Below, one piece after another: positions 1-5,388 of a DNA stretch of 64,000 nucleotides. The notes beneath the pieces were generated by a model, which had not been told where the DNA came from, did no database searches, and worked only from the letters and a program-made list of their open reading frames with translations. Within the stretch, counting starts at the first letter, position 1. Each line of letters starts with the position of its first letter. Origin of the DNA: an uncultured Gammaproteobacteria bacterium (GTDB lineage: Bacteria > Pseudomonadota > Gammaproteobacteria > HyVt-429); contig CAMYOD010000009.1 of NCBI GenBank assembly GCA_947259975.1, positions 1-64,000 on the forward strand, given 5' to 3'. The position numbers and the translations under genes were made by a program.

Positions 1-162
1 TTGAAGCCGATCTGCCAGGCCTACCGCAAGGTGGTGGACCGGGACATCGAGATCAACGTGGGCGGGATCTTTGCCAACTGGAATCCGGCCGCGCATACCC
101 GGTACTGGACGGATCGGGATTTTGTGAAGCCGGTGGGGCGGTTTGTTAATACCCTGCTCTAG
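1..162 (+). CDS. C-terminal end of an unidentified protein, possibly an alpha/beta hydrolase (partial)
   Basis: Frame 1 is open from the first base and ends with TAG at 160-162, giving 53 residues that end in RFVNTLL. The start lies outside the window. The segment NPAAHTRYW followed by a short helix looks like the region around the catalytic histidine near the C-terminus of alpha/beta-fold lipases. This is only a resemblance and no other catalytic residue is visible. The last ~49 bases (114-162) recur in decayed form at 3516-3565, just before the second HigBA pair. Confidence 0.5.
   Translation: MKPICQAYRKVVDRDIEINVGGIFANWNPAAHTRYWTDRDFVKPVGRFVNTLL
114..162 (+). repeat. Left-flank repeat, copy A (3' end of the entering gene)
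   Basis: This is the 3' end of the gene at 1-162. A copy with roughly seven differences lies at 3516-3565. Both copies sit just upstream of the promoter of a HigBA-type cassette. Copy B is not attached to any longer gene remnant and carries in-frame changes, so copy A looks ancestral. Confidence 0.75.
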
Positions 163-198
163 TTTCGGGGACAGTACATTGAATTCATAAACCACCCC

Positions 199-225
199 TT
201 CGCGACCAGGCGGCCGCTCCTACAG
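199..225 (-). repeat. REP-like element of the GTAGGAGCGGC...GGTCGCGA type
   Basis: Read on the minus strand, this begins CTGTAGGAGCGGCCGCC and ends GGTCGCGAA. It fits the widespread GTAGGAGC / CGCGA palindromic repeats known from Pseudomonas and relatives. The arms are imperfect. It lies between the left-flank repeat and the first TA promoter. Confidence 0.5.
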
Positions 226-240
226 CTTTTCGTATATAAC

Positions 241-268
241 TTGACACACGTACCATTATTGGTACACT
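241..268 (+). promoter_or_regulatory. Promoter and operator of the first HigBA pair
   Basis: TTGACA (241-246) and TACACT (263-268) are separated by 16 bp. Between and over them lies the inverted repeat GTACCA-TTAT-TGGTAC (250-265), a plausible antitoxin operator. The expected transcription start falls within a few bases of the toxin ATG at 276. No Shine-Dalgarno sequence precedes that ATG, so the mRNA may be leaderless. Confidence 0.55.
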
Positions 269-275
269 CTTTACC

Positions 276-626
276 ATGCAACGGAATGCAGAGTTGGCGG
301 TGGTCTTCTATCGCACGAGCACTGGACAGGAGCCGGTGCGCGCCTGGCTGAAGACGCTGTCGCGACAAGACAAGAGGACCATTGGCGCGGACATCAAGAC
401 CGTACAGCTGGGCTGGCCCTTGGGCATGCCGGTAGTACGCAAACTCGACACGGGTCTTTGGGAGATCCGCTCGCGCCTGGACCAACGCATCGCGCGGGTG
501 ATCTTTACCGTGACCGACTCGACAATGGTTCTGCTGCACGGCTTTATCAAGAAATCGGCCAAGACGCCGCGAGACGATCTGCAACTGGCCAAGCGCCGCA
601 GAGCGCTGTTGACGGAAATCCAATGA
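276..626 (+). CDS. higB: HigB-type toxin, Gp49-like (RelE/ParE superfamily)
   Basis: The 116-residue protein has the hallmarks of phage-derived Gp49-like HigB toxins: VVFYRTSTGQEPVRAWL at the N-terminus, a central GLWEIRS strand, and a C-terminal LLHGFIKKSAKTP block that carries the basic residues of the fold. Members of this family are ribosome-dependent mRNA interferases. The stop overlaps the start of the antitoxin gene by 4 bp (ATGA at 623-626), the toxin-first order usual for hig systems. There is no ribosome-binding site, and the predicted transcript begins about at the ATG. The family assignment is firm; activity is inferred. Confidence 0.88.
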   Translation: MQRNAELAVVFYRTSTGQEPVRAWLKTLSRQDKRTIGADIKTVQLGWPLGMPVVRKLDTGLWEIRSRLDQRIARVIFTVTDSTMVLLHGFIKKSAKTPRDDLQLAKRRRALLTEIQ

Positions 627-904
627 GCAAGCATCTTGGAAGTAAGTTCGATGAGTTTCTCGACGAGGAAGGCCTGCTCGCCGAATCCCAGGCGATCGCG
701 GTCAAGCGGGTCATCGCCTATCGCCTGCAGGAACTTATGGACCGGCAGGAAATCACCAAGGCCGAACTGGCGCGGCGCATGGGCACAAGCCGCTCGTCGC
801 TGGAACGGCTGCTCGACCCGGACAATACCTCGGTGACATTGCTCACCTTGGAGCGGGCCGCCAGGGCGCTCGGGCAGAAGATCAAGATCGAGTTGGCGGC
901 CTAG
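623..904 (+). CDS. higA: XRE-family HigA-like antitoxin
   Basis: This 93-residue protein partners the toxin directly upstream. A helix-turn-helix of the Cro/C1 type spans about residues 35-60 (ITKAELARRMGTSRSSLERLL), followed by the typical TLLTLERAARALGQKIKIEL tail. It should neutralise the toxin and repress the promoter at 241-268. The ATG lies inside the toxin stop (ATGA), which fixes the start by translational coupling. Its last two codons and stop belong to a 26-bp sequence repeated exactly at the end of the unrelated antitoxin gene at 3902-4207. Confidence 0.88.
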   Translation: MSKHLGSKFDEFLDEEGLLAESQAIAVKRVIAYRLQELMDRQEITKAELARRMGTSRSSLERLLDPDNTSVTLLTLERAARALGQKIKIELAA

Positions 905-919
905 GCCAATCGCCCTTCT
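894..919 (+). repeat. Right-flank repeat, copy A (26 bp, exact)
   Basis: These 26 bases are identical to 4197-4222. Both copies span the last codons (GCG GCC TAG) of an antitoxin gene and run ~15 bases past the stop. The contained GGCCTAGGCC is itself a palindrome. The two host genes are otherwise unrelated. Confidence 0.85.
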
Positions 920-937
920 CCTTCGCGGCCAGAAATA

Positions 938-979
938 GGGGTCGGAGTGACTAAAATTAAATCACTCCGACCCCTTTTT
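938..979. repeat. REP-like palindrome (GGGGTCGGAGTGA type), terminator-like
   Basis: Arms GGGGTCGGAGTGA (938-950) and TCACTCCGACCCC (962-974) are perfect inverted copies around an 11-bp AT-rich loop, followed by TTTTT (975-979). It belongs to the dispersed family described in the findings and could end transcription of the first TA pair. Confidence 0.8.
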
Positions 980-1016
980 AGGTTCGGAACCCCTCTTCTA
1001 TAAAGCTTTGCGGGCG

Positions 1017-1046
1017 TATTGACAATGTCAATACATGGAGGATAAT
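1017..1046 (+). promoter_or_regulatory. Promoter and operator of the BrnT-like pair
   Basis: TATTGACA-A-TGTCAATA (1017-1033) is a perfect 17-bp inverted repeat whose left half contains a consensus -35 (TTGACA, 1019-1024). GATAAT (1041-1046) follows after 16 bp and can be the -10. The predicted start point is near 1053, at the second in-frame ATG of the toxin gene (1054). Confidence 0.55.
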
Positions 1047-1053
1047 GCGGTTC

Positions 1054-1347
1054 ATGGATGAGCAGTTTGAGTTGAATGGAATCACGTTTGTCTGGAATCA
1101 GGCGAAGGCTCAACAGAATCTGCGCAAGCACGGGGTTGCGTTTGCGCAGGCGGCGGAGGCCTTTTTCGATCCCTTTGTGCGTGTGGTCGATGCCGGCCGA
1201 AATGTGGAGGCACGCGACGCGATCCTCGGCATGGACACGCACTGGCAGCTCTTGTTCGTCGTGCACATCGCCTTCGAGGATGACGCGATCCGTTTGATAT
1301 CGGCGCGCACGGCGACGCGCCGCGAGAGACAACTGTATGAAGATTGA
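1054..1347 (+). CDS. brnT: BrnT-family toxin (DUF497)
   Basis: The protein has the BrnT signature: FVWNQAKAQQNLRKHGVAF, then DPFVRVVDAG, a GMDTHWQLLFVVHIAFED strand pair, and IRLISARTATRRERQLYE. BrnT is a RelE-fold ribonuclease toxin. An upstream in-frame ATG at 1045 exists, with GGAGG only 3 bp before it, which is too close. The -10 box (1041-1046) overlaps that ATG, so 1054 is the more consistent start and would give a leaderless transcript. The end overlaps the antitoxin start by 11 bp. Confidence 0.88.
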   Translation: MDEQFELNGITFVWNQAKAQQNLRKHGVAFAQAAEAFFDPFVRVVDAGRNVEARDAILGMDTHWQLLFVVHIAFEDDAIRLISARTATRRERQLYED

Positions 1348-1627
1348 AAAGCTCAAGAGTCGTCTGCAGCGGGATCGACCGATGGTGTCGGTGACGCTGC
1401 GCATGCCGGAAGATGTGGTGGCGGATCTGAAGCGCATCGCCCCCCTCCTAGGCTTTTCCGGTTATCAGCCCCTGTTGCGTGCCTACGTCGGCCAGGGCCT
1501 GCGCCGCGACCTCGAACGGCTGGACAGCGACGTCGTTGCCGGCCTGGTCGCCGGGCTCAAGAAACGCGGCGTGAATGCCAAGTTGATCGAAGAGACACTG
1601 GCGGAGATGGCGCAGGACGGCGATTAG
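1337..1627 (+). CDS. BrnA/CopG-like antitoxin
   Basis: A 96-residue partner of the BrnT toxin. The segment MVSVTLRMPEDVVADLKRIAPLLGFSGYQPLLRAYV has the strand-helix-helix layout of ribbon-helix-helix DNA-binding antitoxins and matches BrnA-like proteins (DUF4415 and relatives) in position and length. The start overlaps the toxin end by 11 bp, indicating coupled translation. It is expected to bind the palindrome at 1017-1033. Exact family membership is less certain than the role. Confidence 0.78.
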   Translation: MKIEKLKSRLQRDRPMVSVTLRMPEDVVADLKRIAPLLGFSGYQPLLRAYVGQGLRRDLERLDSDVVAGLVAGLKKRGVNAKLIEETLAEMAQDGD

Positions 1628-1638
1628 AAGGCATAAAA

Positions 1639-1661
1639 GGGACGGAATTGAATTCCGTCCC
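1639..1661. repeat. REP-like palindrome (GGGACGGAATT type)
   Basis: A perfect 23-bp inverted repeat with a single central G: GGGACGGAATT and AATTCCGTCCC. It lies 11 bp after the brnA-like stop. It is the same subfamily as 8304-8328 and 16277-16295. Confidence 0.75.
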
Positions 1662-1700
1662 CTGCTTCGTTTCCAAGGCGACAATCTATGTGAGTTGTCC

Positions 1701-1724
1701 AACTGTAGCCTATAGGCTACAGTT
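1701..1724. promoter_or_regulatory. Perfect 24-bp palindrome, probable operator
   Basis: AACTGTAGCCTA and its exact complement abut with no spacer. It lies upstream of the truncated toxin and intact antitoxin at 1726-2117 and is the likely site for the orphan antitoxin. Confidence 0.55.
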
Positions 1725-1725
1725 A

Positions 1726-1824
1726 AGCGGTGACGCGTATAAGGAAATACCGCCGATCGGATGGCGTGGTGCCGCTCGATATATCAAGCTTGCCAAGACC
1801 TATTGGCGGGATCACCAAGTTTAA
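1726..1824 (+). pseudogene. C-terminal remnant of a RelE/ParE-type killer toxin
   Basis: An open frame runs SGDAYKEIPP... to RYIKLAKTYWRDHQV and stops with TAA at 1822-1824. That TAA shares its final A with the antitoxin ATG at 1824, the tight junction expected of a TA pair. The spacing of a glycine-aspartate motif followed by a terminal amphipathic helix resembles the last third of the toxins that partner this antitoxin family. The first two thirds are absent: the probable operator (1701-1724) runs straight into the remnant. Similarity is weak, so this is inference from position and partial pattern. Confidence 0.45.
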
Positions 1825-2117
1825 TGATGACAGCTCCAGCTTATAATGCCGCGGACTATCTCAAAACGGATAGAGATGTGGTGAATTATCTCAATGCCGC
1901 CCTGGAAGACGGCGATCCGGCGACCTTATTGGAGGCGCTGCGTAACGTGGCCCAGGCCCGGGGCGGCATGAGCGCCCTGGCGGAGGCGGCCGGGGTGAGT
2001 CGTGAGAGCCTTTATCGCTCATTATCCCGCCGCGGCAATCCCAAAATCGAAACGGTGATGGAACTGTTACGCGCGCTGGGTCTCAAGATAAAGATTCAGC
2101 GGAATAACGCCGCCTGA
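1824..2117 (+). CDS. HigA-like addiction-module antidote, orphaned
   Basis: A 97-residue protein with the layout of the antidote family that pairs with small RelE/ParE toxins. It has an N-terminal AADYLKTDRDVVNYLNAALEDGDPA segment, then an XRE helix-turn-helix (MSALAEAAGVSRESLYRSLS, about residues 53-72), then NPKIETVMELLRALGLKIKI. The start at 1824 is supported by overlap with the upstream TAA. An alternative ATG follows at 1827. Its toxin appears deleted down to a remnant, so it may now act only as a repressor or anti-addiction factor. Confidence 0.85.
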   Translation: MMTAPAYNAADYLKTDRDVVNYLNAALEDGDPATLLEALRNVAQARGGMSALAEAAGVSRESLYRSLSRRGNPKIETVMELLRALGLKIKIQRNNAA

Positions 2118-2146
2118 GCGGAAGGCTCTTCAATCGATTGCCCTGG

Positions 2147-2178
2147 ATTCCGGACAAGCGCGGCGCGCTTTCCGGAAT
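2147..2178. repeat. ATTCCGGA inverted repeat
   Basis: ATTCCGGA (2147-2154) and TCCGGAAT (2171-2178) flank a GC-rich loop. The surrounding CCTGGATTCCGG...CCGGAATGACAG matches a common intergenic repeat of many proteobacteria. It is distinct from the GGGGTC family. Confidence 0.55.
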
Positions 2179-2204
2179 GACAGTAATGGACCGGGATAGC
2201 CCAT

Positions 2205-2245
2205 GCCGGAGACCACTTGTTTCCAATATTGGCGTTGTCTCCGGC
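2205..2245. other. Hairpin upstream of the CNNM gene
   Basis: GCCGGAGAC (2205-2213) and GTCTCCGGC (2237-2245) form a perfect 9-bp stem. The 23-base loop contains CCAATATTGG, itself a palindrome. It lies ~100 bp before the start at 2347. No known riboswitch class was recognised. Confidence 0.4.
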
Positions 2246-2346
2246 CCGGATTTCCGCGACGAGTGCCGCAATATCAATCGCTTATGGCCTTTGCGGGCCG
2301 GGCATGCTAGCGTTTGCACATCCTTGACTGCTCCATGGTTTAGTTC

Positions 2347-3396
2347 GTGACACTTCTGTTTGTTTATCTGTTCATCGCCATCGGCGTGTCCTTTCTGTGC
2401 TCTATCCTCGAGGCCGTTCTACTCTCCATCACCCCGAGCTATCTGCAAACGCTGACCACTGAGCGGCCACGCGCGAGCAAGGTGGTCGTCCGGGTCAAGG
2501 ACCGGCTGGATGAGTCGCTCTCCAGCATCCTCATCCTCAACACCTTCGCCCACACCATGGGTGCGGCGGGGGTCGGTTCGCAGGCGCTGCAGATCTTCGG
2601 TGCCAAGTGGGAGACCCTCATCGCCGTGCTGCTCACGCTGGCGATCCTGTATTTCTCCGAGATCATTCCCAAGACGCTGGGCGCCACCTTCTGGCGCGCC
2701 CTGACCGTGCCGGCGTCCTTCGTCATCGCCTGGTTGGTGAAGCTGGTCTATCCGTTGGTGTGGCTCGCGACGCGCTTGACCCGGCTGTTCAGTCGCGGTC
2801 AGAGCAGCGAGATCACCCGCGAAGAAATCATCGCCCTGGCAACGCTCGGCACGCGCGATGGCACCCTGTTCTCCCAGGAGAACGAGTACCTGGCGAATGT
2901 GCTGAGCCTGCACGAGATCCGCACCGAGCAGATCCTCACGCCGCGCAGCGTGGTGCACATGCTGGACGAGAACCTGACGGTGAGCGAGGCGCTGGATCAT
3001 CCGCAGACCCGCCAGTTCACCCGCATCCCCATCTACGGGCAGGGGCGGGACGACATCACCGGCAAGGTCATCCGCGTCGACCTGTTCGAGGCCGAGCGCG
3101 ACGGCCATGGTAACGCGCCCATCAAAACCTTTGCCAAGGACATCACCCGGGTATCGGAAAAGTTGCCGGTTGAGAAACTGCTGGACTTGCTCATCAAACA
3201 ACGTCTGCACCTGGTCGTGGTGGAGGACGAGTTCGGCCAGCTGGCGGGCGTCGCCACCCTCGAGGACGCCATCGAGACTTTGCTGGGGCGCGAGATTCTC
3301 GATGAAAGTGACACCGTGGCCGACATGCAGGCACTGGCGCGCGGCAAATACCGCGCGCGCCTGCGTGACGAGAAAAGCGACGCGGCCAAGTCCTGA
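2347..3396 (+). CDS. CNNM/CBS-domain membrane protein (HlyC/CorC-like family)
   Basis: A 349-residue protein with an N-terminal CNNM (DUF21) membrane domain of about 150 residues: several hydrophobic helices and the conserved ILILNTFAHTMGAAG and YFSEIIPKTLGA segments. A CBS-pair region follows (about 195-315; ILTPRSVVHMLDE, FTRIPIYGQGRDDITGKV, LHLVVVEDEFGQLAGVATLEDAIETLLG). The C-terminal CorC_HlyC domain of longer relatives is absent. Family members are implicated in Mg2+ or Co2+ efflux and homeostasis. Translation starts at GTG 2347. Confidence 0.88.
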   Translation: MTLLFVYLFIAIGVSFLCSILEAVLLSITPSYLQTLTTERPRASKVVVRVKDRLDESLSSILILNTFAHTMGAAGVGSQALQIFGAKWETLIAVLLTLAILYFSEIIPKTLGATFWRALTVPASFVIAWLVKLVYPLVWLATRLTRLFSRGQSSEITREEIIALATLGTRDGTLFSQENEYLANVLSLHEIRTEQILTPRSVVHMLDENLTVSEALDHPQTRQFTRIPIYGQGRDDITGKVIRVDLFEAERDGHGNAPIKTFAKDITRVSEKLPVEKLLDLLIKQRLHLVVVEDEFGQLAGVATLEDAIETLLGREILDESDTVADMQALARGKYRARLRDEKSDAAKS

Positions 3397-3409
3397 ATTG
3401 CAGAGGATC

Positions 3410-3516
3410 AATGGGGTCAGACTCGATTGATTGTCTGGGGCTCAATCAATGGTGATCAATCGAGTCTGACCCCATTGATTATTAATGGTGATCAATCGAG
3501 TCTGACCCCATTGATT
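3410..3516. repeat. REP-like palindrome with a tandemly duplicated right arm
   Basis: The left arm (AATGGGGTCAGACTCGATT, from 3410) pairs with a right arm at 3455-3476 (AATCGAGTCTGACCCCATT). A 33-bp segment containing the right arm is then repeated almost at once (3448-3480 and 3484-3516, period 36 bp), giving one left arm and two right arms. The 4229-4281 element is the simple form. No spacer variety, so not a CRISPR. Confidence 0.8.
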
Positions 3517-3565
3517 CGGGATTTTGTTAAGCCGGGTGGGGCAGTTTATTAGCACCCTGCTGTAG
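3516..3565 (+). repeat. Left-flank repeat, copy B (gene-end remnant)
   Basis: A copy of 114-162 with one inserted base and about six substitutions. It starts directly at the end of the REP-like cluster and stops just before the promoter of the second HigBA pair, mirroring copy A. Confidence 0.75.
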
Positions 3566-3578
3566 CAAGCTATTATGC

Positions 3579-3603
3579 TTGACATATTACGTATCCCGTA
3601 ATA
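3579..3603 (+). promoter_or_regulatory. Promoter -35 and operator of the second HigBA pair
   Basis: TTGACA (3579-3584) is followed at once by the inverted repeat TATTACG-TATCC-CGTAATA (3585-3603). No good -10 box is obvious. The toxin ATG is at 3614. Confidence 0.45.
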
Positions 3604-3613
3604 GCCTTCAGAA

Positions 3614-3892
3614 ATGATAAGGACGTTTCGCTGCCGGGACACGGAGTCCCTGTTCATGGACGAGCCCGTGGCGCGTTTTTGCGCTATCGAGCGCGTCGCC
3701 CGGCGCAAACTGATGTACCTGCATGCCGCGCGGCGACTGACCGACCTGCGCTCCCCGCCCGGTAACCGCCTCGAGACGCTCAAGGGCGATCGCCAGGGGC
3801 AATACAGTATCCGTATAAATAGCCAATGGCGGATCTGTTTTCGTTGGCAGGACGGGCATGCGTTTGACGTCGAGATTGTCGATTACCACTGA
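3614..3892 (+). CDS. higB: HigB toxin (plasmid-maintenance killer family)
   Basis: The 92-residue sequence fits the HigB/killer family of RelE-like toxins: MIRTFRCRDTESLF, ERVARRKLMYLHAARRLTDLRSPPGNRLE, then YSIRINSQWRICFRW and a C-terminal VEIVDYH. The final histidine and the preceding basic residues are the conserved active-site region of this RNase fold. The antitoxin gene follows after 9 bp. It belongs to a different HigB subfamily from the Gp49-like toxin at 276-626 although the flanks are shared. Confidence 0.92.
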   Translation: MIRTFRCRDTESLFMDEPVARFCAIERVARRKLMYLHAARRLTDLRSPPGNRLETLKGDRQGQYSIRINSQWRICFRWQDGHAFDVEIVDYH

Positions 3893-3901
3893 GATGTAGC
3901 G

Positions 3902-4207
3902 ATGCCGAGAAAGACCAAAAAGCTAACCCCGATCCATCCGGGCGAGATCCTGCGTGAGGAGTTCATGCGCCCATTGGAGATCAGCATCAATCGCCTGGCG
4001 CGAGACATCGCGGTGCCGCCCAATCGCATCAGCGAGATCGTCAATGGCAAGCGCGGCATCACCGCCGACACCGCCCTGCGCCTGGCGCGTTACTTCAAGA
4101 CGACACCGGAGACCTGGATGGCGCTGCAGACGGAATACGACCTGCGAGTTGCCGAGCGCACCGTCGGCGCCGAGGTTAAGAAGCGGGTGCACCCGGTGGC
4201 GGCCTAG
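3902..4207 (+). CDS. higA: HigA antitoxin
   Basis: A 101-residue protein with the diagnostic HigA opening IHPGEILREEFMRPLEIS, an XRE helix-turn-helix (about residues 28-55, NRLARDIAVPPNRISEIVNGKRGI), and the TADTALRLARYFKTTPETWMALQ block shared by all HigA proteins. It should bind the palindrome at 3585-3603. The last two codons and stop lie in the 26-bp right-flank repeat, so its extreme C-terminus (VAA) may be dictated by the repeat. Confidence 0.93.
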   Translation: MPRKTKKLTPIHPGEILREEFMRPLEISINRLARDIAVPPNRISEIVNGKRGITADTALRLARYFKTTPETWMALQTEYDLRVAERTVGAEVKKRVHPVAA

Positions 4208-4222
4208 GCCAATCGCCCTTCT
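4197..4222 (+). repeat. Right-flank repeat, copy B (26 bp, exact)
   Basis: Identical to 894-919 over 26 bases. Here it is followed directly by a REP-like palindrome, whereas copy A is followed by one 18 bases later. Confidence 0.85.
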
Positions 4223-4228
4223 AGGATC

Positions 4229-4281
4229 AATGGGGTCAGACTCGATTGATCACCAGACAATCAATCGAGTCTGACCCCATT
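4229..4281. repeat. REP-like palindrome (GGGGTCAGACTCGATT type)
   Basis: Perfect 22-bp arms, starting AATGGGGTCAGACTCG (4229-4250) and ending CGAGTCTGACCCCATT (4260-4281), around a 9-base loop. This is the most complete member of its subfamily here. Confidence 0.85.
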
Positions 4282-4338
4282 GATTGCTATTCCAGTCGTT
4301 CAGGTTCAATCAACGAACGACTGGTTGATACTTTCAGT

Positions 4339-5361
4339 TCAATATCCGGCGCACCCCGGTAACCAGGATGCGGCTGGACGAACTTCTCCCACGGCAATGC
4401 CACTTGAGTTTACAATCGTTGGAGAGATATGAGCCTGAAGTTTATGTTTCTCTTCATCAGATAGAGCGCCCAGATGATCAAGGATCGCCAATAACGCGAC
4501 TGAACGTGCGCGGGCACTGCCATCCGCTATTTTCAATGCAATCCCCAGGCCTCGGTTAGGTAAGGCCGCAGTGACAACACCCTCGGCACCGGTTTTGGCT
4601 AGCACCCCACCTTTGGTGACTTCGTTCAACTCACTGACCACGCTCCCGTGGCCGGCAATATATAAAGGCTCATTGGTAATGGCCTCGTGAAGACGGTAGA
4701 TTGCCTGCGCCCGATAATCTGACATATCTACAGGCTCGGCGAAGCGGGCCGTGGCATGCCCGAGCTTGAGTAACGGCATCGTGGGTGCAGGTAGCCCACA
4801 TCCATCGATCCCCATGGGATACTGCTTAAGATCAATATCAGCCAGATCGGAGAGTATATCCAGTGATAATTGCTGTAAGGGATGTTCGATCTGGTGGTAA
4901 TTATCCAGCGGTAAATCCAGATACAGTGCCGTGGTTAAAAATCCGGTGTGCTTACCTGAGCAATTGTGGTGAATTCGACAGCCACGCTGTCCGGAAGCCA
5001 GTAACTGGTGAGCGCGCTCTGTATCTTCAGGTAGCACAGCGCCACAGGCTAAATGATCCTCCGTTAACCCCAGACGGGTTAGCCAGGATTCCACCAGATT
5101 TTGGTGCATTTGCTCACCCTGATGAGACGAACAGGCCAACGATAATTCTGCATCGCTTAGGGCATATTTGTTGCTGGCGCCACTCTCAACCAGATGAATT
5201 GCCAGCATCGGCTTTAGAGCAGAGCGCGGAAATACCAGGCTTTCGATGTCTCCCCAGCTTTCCACCACGCTGCCCTTAATATCGCACACGACGGCAGAAC
5301 CAAAATGCCGACTTTCCACAGTGCCATTACGTGTAACTTCGACTAAAAGTACATAGGACAT
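4339..5361 (-). CDS. L-asparaginase II, rhizobial type (PF06089)
   Basis: A 340-residue member of the Rhizobium etli-type asparaginases, which hydrolyse asparagine to aspartate and ammonia. The family's RSALKPM motif with the paired Ser-Lys appears near residue 47. The zinc-site motifs HHNCSGKHTGF and GIDGCGLPAP carry the Cys, Lys and Cys ligands known from the R. etli enzyme. A TTG 18 bp upstream is possible, but ATG at 5361 gives the canonical MSYVLLVEV start. It lies 27 bp downstream of an ATP-grasp gene and probably forms an operon with it. Base composition is clearly more AT-rich than the flanks. Confidence 0.88.
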   Translation of the reverse strand: MSYVLLVEVTRNGTVESRHFGSAVVCDIKGSVVESWGDIESLVFPRSALKPMLAIHLVESGASNKYALSDAELSLACSSHQGEQMHQNLVESWLTRLGLTEDHLACGAVLPEDTERAHQLLASGQRGCRIHHNCSGKHTGFLTTALYLDLPLDNYHQIEHPLQQLSLDILSDLADIDLKQYPMGIDGCGLPAPTMPLLKLGHATARFAEPVDMSDYRAQAIYRLHEAITNEPLYIAGHGSVVSELNEVTKGGVLAKTGAEGVVTAALPNRGLGIALKIADGSARARSVALLAILDHLGALSDEEKHKLQAHISPTIVNSSGIAVGEVRPAASWLPGCAGY

Positions 5362-5388
5362 GCAGCTGGAACTCCGCAATATACCTTC

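Follow-up and report, generated by a model that had tools for sequence, protein, structure and literature searches.

Shared flanks around two unrelated HigBA toxin-antitoxin pairs suggest a one-off patchwork in a REP-rich gammaproteobacterial locus

Background

In the window (the whole 64,000-nucleotide stretch analysed here, from the start of a contig of an uncultured gammaproteobacterium), two HigBA toxin-antitoxin (TA) pairs of different families lie between copies of the same two short flanks. We find that the block holding the second pair (3516-4222) is best explained as a patchwork that arose a single time in this lineage: the neighbourhood of gene X and HigBA1 would have been copied, with HigBA2 as its content. 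We give this reading a probability of about one half. The original prediction had explained the shared borders by cassette exchange, and a general exchange process, if true, would account for the replacement of one TA pair by another at a fixed site. That proposal is largely refuted by the searches presented here, its support being limited to the two copies from which it arose, and no new mechanism is needed to account for the locus.

Results and Discussion

Gene content of the locus

The features to which the argument refers are listed here by position, with the strand in brackets where one applies.

1-162 (+): 3' end of gene X, an open reading frame inside which the contig starts
114-162 (+): left flank copy L1, covering the final 15 codons of X and its stop
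167-186 (+): REP-like half palindrome, type D, GGGGACAGTACATTGAATTC, between X and HigBA1
276-626 (+): HigB1 toxin, PF05973 Gp49 family, 2e-21
623-904 (+): HigA1 antitoxin, HTH_26/HTH_37 type, ending IELAA-stop as do its relatives
894-919 (+): right flank R1, the last codons and stop of HigA1 and 15 nt past the stop, native to the HigA1 locus
933-979: REP palindrome, type B, GGGGTCGGAGTGA..., downstream of HigA1, with a half palindrome at the same offset in the sister genus
1045-1347 (+): BrnT toxin, PF04365, 7.5e-23
1337-1627 (+): partner of BrnT, in the BrnA position, without a Pfam match
1824-2117 (+): HI1420-type antitoxin without an intact toxin
2347-3396 (+): CNNM/CBS membrane protein, whose homologues in family genomes are only ~25% similar
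3404-3516: REP cluster (BIME, type A) of three units, abutting L2
3516-3565 (+): left flank copy L2, part of an X-like gene end, with a frameshift
3577-3892 (+): HigBA2 promoter region and HigB2 toxin (ORF 3614-3892, PF05015)
3902-4207 (+): HigA2 antitoxin, TIGR02607, ending HPVAA-stop as do its relatives
4197-4222 (+): right flank copy R2, with the 15 nt past the HigA2 stop copied from the HigA1 locus
4223-4285: REP cluster (BIME, type A) of two units, abutting R2

Both HigBA pairs are assigned to type II TA systems, with putative toxin and antitoxin activities. A BrnTA-like pair (1045-1627) and a decayed third system, the toxin-less HI1420-type antitoxin, are both present between them as originally described, and the view of the locus as a TA cluster is supported. 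About 100 bp upstream of the toxin-less antitoxin lies a perfect 24-bp palindrome of operator type, AACTGTAGCCTATAGGCTACAGTT (1701-1724). The CNNM/CBS gene is probably accessory, given its distant homologues in family genomes. Searches of the three other family genomes found no close homologue of either the CNNM protein or an asparaginase-like gene (2347-5379), and the accessory region may therefore reach beyond the TA pairs.

Gene X is single copy in the genome and, as far as the contig shows, appears intact on the HigBA1 side. No clear homologue was found in the family genomes searched, and among relatives there is only a weak match, to a 326-aa open frame in genome G049 (29%, E 0.004). X thus weakly resembles the C-terminus of an alpha/beta-hydrolase-like ORF, a label that comes from reading the G049 frame and not from a family match.

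Two unrelated pairs share both flanks

Alignment confirms that the two pairs are flanked by ~50-bp left copies (~86% alike) and identical 26-bp right copies. L1 and L2 differ by 6 substitutions and one 1-base insertion in L2, their similarity has E = 7e-9 in a search against the whole genome, and their longest exact core is 12 bp. The extra base of L2 breaks the reading frame of the X-like end; aside from it, the codon changes relative to L1 are conservative or silent (V-I, R-Q, N-S). R1 and R2 are identical at 26 of 26 bases and, REP palindromes aside, form the sole exact direct repeat of at least 20 bp in the window. Across 500 Markov resamples the longest word common to the two regions never exceeded 14 bases, against 26 observed. 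Substitutions affect 12.5% of L and none of R; at the substitution rate of L, 26 identical R bases have a probability of 0.03, or 0.13 when the 15 non-coding bases alone are considered.

The assignment of the pairs to different subfamilies is borne out on several grounds. HigB1 belongs to PF05973 (Gp49) and HigB2 to PF05015; HigA2 passes the curated cut-off of TIGR02607 (116 bits against 47.7), whereas HigA1, the partner of the PF05973 toxin, fails it at 16.3 bits. No significant similarity was found between the interiors of the two pairs, in protein or DNA, and each pair has its own closer relatives elsewhere, which argues that they did not diverge from one duplicated TA pair. Simple segmental duplication followed by divergence is ruled out by these non-homologous interiors and different toxin families.

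The right flank is native to HigA1

The right border had been thought to rewrite the C-terminus of the antitoxin, an idea contradicted by the relatives of both antitoxins, which natively end in Ala-Ala-stop. Relatives of HigA1 in Thiodictyon, Lamprocystis, Thiohalocapsa and genome G017 end IELAA-stop, several of them with GGCGGCC before the stop (GGCGGCC-TGA in Thiodictyon and Lamprocystis), and relatives of HigA2 commonly end HPxAA-stop. Ala-Ala-stop is thus native to both families, and each antitoxin reaches the shared end ...TGGCGGCCTAG independently. Eleven of the 26 shared bases are thus native coding sequence on both sides, and the notable part is the 15 bases past the stop.

The source of these 15 bases is indicated by the sister genus, where a HigA1 relative (genome G002) has CCTAGaCCAATC after its stop; in both genomes a half REP of matching type follows at a distance of 32-33 bases. 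The alignment of this spacer beats all but 0.085% of shuffles (p = 0.0009); no similarity of the post-stop spacer was seen in more distant HigA1 relatives. As the spacer that follows HigA1 is recognisable in the sister genus, R is native at HigA1 and derived at HigA2. This sister-genus relative lies near the start of its contig (L041:1-440, contig C96 of G002), and its 130 upstream bases hold nothing recognisable as HigB1.

For HigBA2, similarity to genomes G043 and G083 begins at 3577, in the promoter region, and in G083 it reaches the stop codon, so that the second cassette is a complete native HigBA2 in borrowed flanks. G083 itself has two antitoxins resembling HigA2 (identities of 80% and 78%), ~4.4 kb apart (C1:1515214-1519879). 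Relatives of the antitoxins in viral contigs were few and not close.

REP palindromes bound the second block

The L2-R2 block is abutted on both sides by REP palindromes, which had been overlooked earlier. The three-unit cluster gives way to L2 at 3515/3516, and the last base of R2, 4222, immediately precedes the second cluster. With the REP core defined from other copies in the genome, the palindromes have the marks of REP/BIME elements: dozens of intergenic copies, alternating orientation, and a RAYT-like gene in the same genome (L187:4004-4714), recognised by reading its sequence and not by a family search. Directly upstream of that gene is a solitary HigA-type antitoxin ORF (MPRKPRMYLPGIPAHVVQRGHNRE...; L187:3542-4714, contig C77 of this genome, G000), with type B REPs on both sides. 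In the 4 kb of the present locus (163-4285), at least four REP types (A-D) lie between successive TA pairs, and three of them (B, C and D) are met again later in the window.

The REPs are likely to be places of breakage or recombination. REP-bounded TA genes as a general feature were considered and rejected, since type A clusters on contigs C2, C35 and C51 adjoin ordinary genes, and the REPs are therefore not TA-specific. That small TA blocks are mobilised by REP/BIME elements with a RAYT, or by recombination targeted to REPs, and inserted next to gene ends at other TA loci is in our judgement very improbable; if true, REP-bounded TA cassettes would be a route of TA turnover.

The borders are found at two places only

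The source genome is a 3.2-Mb draft in 78 contigs with a contamination estimate of 2.85%, and the family comparison comprises four genomes including this one, the other three belonging to other genera. Within the draft each flank occurs at these two places only. With up to 2 mismatches allowed, the right flank was missing from all 368 other class genomes searched, and an exact 21-mer of it gave 0 matches in 84,980 GTDB species genomes; two 18-mer matches in viral contigs, without antitoxin context, are as many as chance predicts. No other TA pair or cargo between the same borders was found, nor any empty site; the CNNM and asparaginase-like genes, used as markers of synteny, had no near relatives in the other three genomes of the family.

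The search for a recombination system was equally negative. No recombinase gene was found on this contig; none of the four matches to the tyrosine recombinase family PF00589 in the genome (on C37, C60, C39 and C71) is on it (C9). Scanning 1-4400 for RYYYAAC ... GTTRRRY revealed no attC-like pair spanning either HigBA cassette: GTTRRRY occurs at 1071, 1722 and 3526 and RYYYAAC at 1108 and 1697, and the only suitably ordered close pair, 1697/1722, is 25 bp apart, off both borders and too short for an attC. The locus does not fit an integron cassette array in these two features, having no border-spanning attC pair and no tyrosine recombinase on the contig.

A site-specific or fixed-border system that swaps TA pairs between L and R is, on this evidence, highly improbable. 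The same borders do enclose different contents at two places, and that part of the original prediction stands; exchange between fixed borders does not, given borders found only twice with no third copy in the genome, the relatives or GTDB, no other cargo, no empty site and no recombinase or attC-like pair, together with a diverged left border and an antitoxin end that was not rewritten. The occurrence of the flanks at two places only is the outcome that was foreseen as refuting exchange, although the simple duplication and divergence foreseen with it fails on the non-homologous interiors.

A proposed one-off patchwork and its rivals

In the patchwork that we favour, the end of X, HigBA1 and the spacer after HigA1 would have been copied, from this genome or from a diverged allele of a related strain, and HigBA2 would have replaced HigBA1 in the copy, over the interval bounded by the X and antitoxin stop codons, by homologous or illegitimate recombination. 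On the left, X-gene homology would have been usable for the replacement; on the right, microhomology may have been supplied by the antitoxin ends, which are identical by chance in the two families (TGGCGGCCTAG, Ala-Ala-stop), and the outer limits were probably set by REP recombination or REP-associated breakage. A single event or a short series would suffice: the duplication would have been local and unique, with replacement of the TA pair, in an islet of TA genes rich in REPs. This reading is favoured by the restriction of the flanks to two places, by the absence of the right flank elsewhere, by the native ends of both antitoxin families, by the origin of R at HigA1, by a HigBA2 that is native without native flanks, by the REP edges of the block and by the codon changes of L2, which resemble those of a diverged allele. 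No relative shows an intermediate, whether X-HigBA2-R in place at X or a further X-HigBA1-R copy, and this, like the unequal divergence of L and R, speaks against the reading.

That inequality means that the two flanks may differ in age, which leaves room for two separate short templated insertions beside a resident HigBA2 during break repair at the REP clusters. A polymerase would have switched template to the X-HigBA1 locus, picking up ~50 bp for the left side and, by way of TGGCGGCCTAG, 15 bp for the right. We consider this unlikely: it suits two short pieces that end at REP edges, differ in divergence (86% and 100%) and have their source 3.3-3.4 kb away, but their sources flank a single TA pair and keep their order and orientation in the copies, a pattern that two independent events would have to mimic. 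Rather more doubtful is an assembly chimera or a mixture of strains, in which alleles X-HigBA1-R and X'-HigBA2-R' were set in tandem by the assembler. The draft state of the genome (78 contigs), the start of the contig inside X, the repeat-rich region and the allele-like divergence of L2 would all agree with such an artefact; the joins, however, fall at short REPs and not at long repeats, the CNNM gene and further TA genes lie in between, and estimated contamination is just 2.85%. A repeated gene 3' end at the far side is the usual trace of island integration, and L1 and L2, a direct repeat of a gene end including its stop 3.4 kb apart, fit that trace, as does the CNNM gene between them with its distant family homologues. 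Integration of a small island at the 3' end of X, with R1 and R2 as a separate duplication, is nevertheless improbable, for the block has no integrase (all four PF00589 matches being on other contigs), the exact core of L1 and L2 reaches only 12 bp, and R1/R2 is left unexplained. A local rearrangement can thus imitate cassette exchange when two antitoxin families share their final codons, and caution is needed in reading shared borders as recombination sites.

Comparison with known systems

REP/BIME palindromes and RAYT transposases are described elements (PMC2817692, PMC3116915), and the locus resembles such systems in its alternating-orientation REPs between genes and in the RAYT-like gene of the genome (L187); it differs in that REPs here also stand beside ordinary genes (L197-L199), and there is no evidence of REPs moving TA genes. 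Integron cassettes, as in the Vibrio superintegron, carry TA pairs as exchangeable units (compare PMC5543033). Unlike these, the present pairs have no cassette-spanning attC pairs and no integrase nearby, and each has its own promoter region. In the chromosomal TA islets of Escherichia coli, such as ccdAB in folA-apaH and parE-3/yiaG-2 in nadR-attA, TA genes are gained and lost at fixed intergenic sites (PMC7232551). The locus is like these islets in the turnover of TA genes between unchanged neighbours without a dedicated recombinase, and unlike them in that the end of the neighbouring gene and the spacer past the TA pair are duplicated, with both TA pairs kept in one genome.
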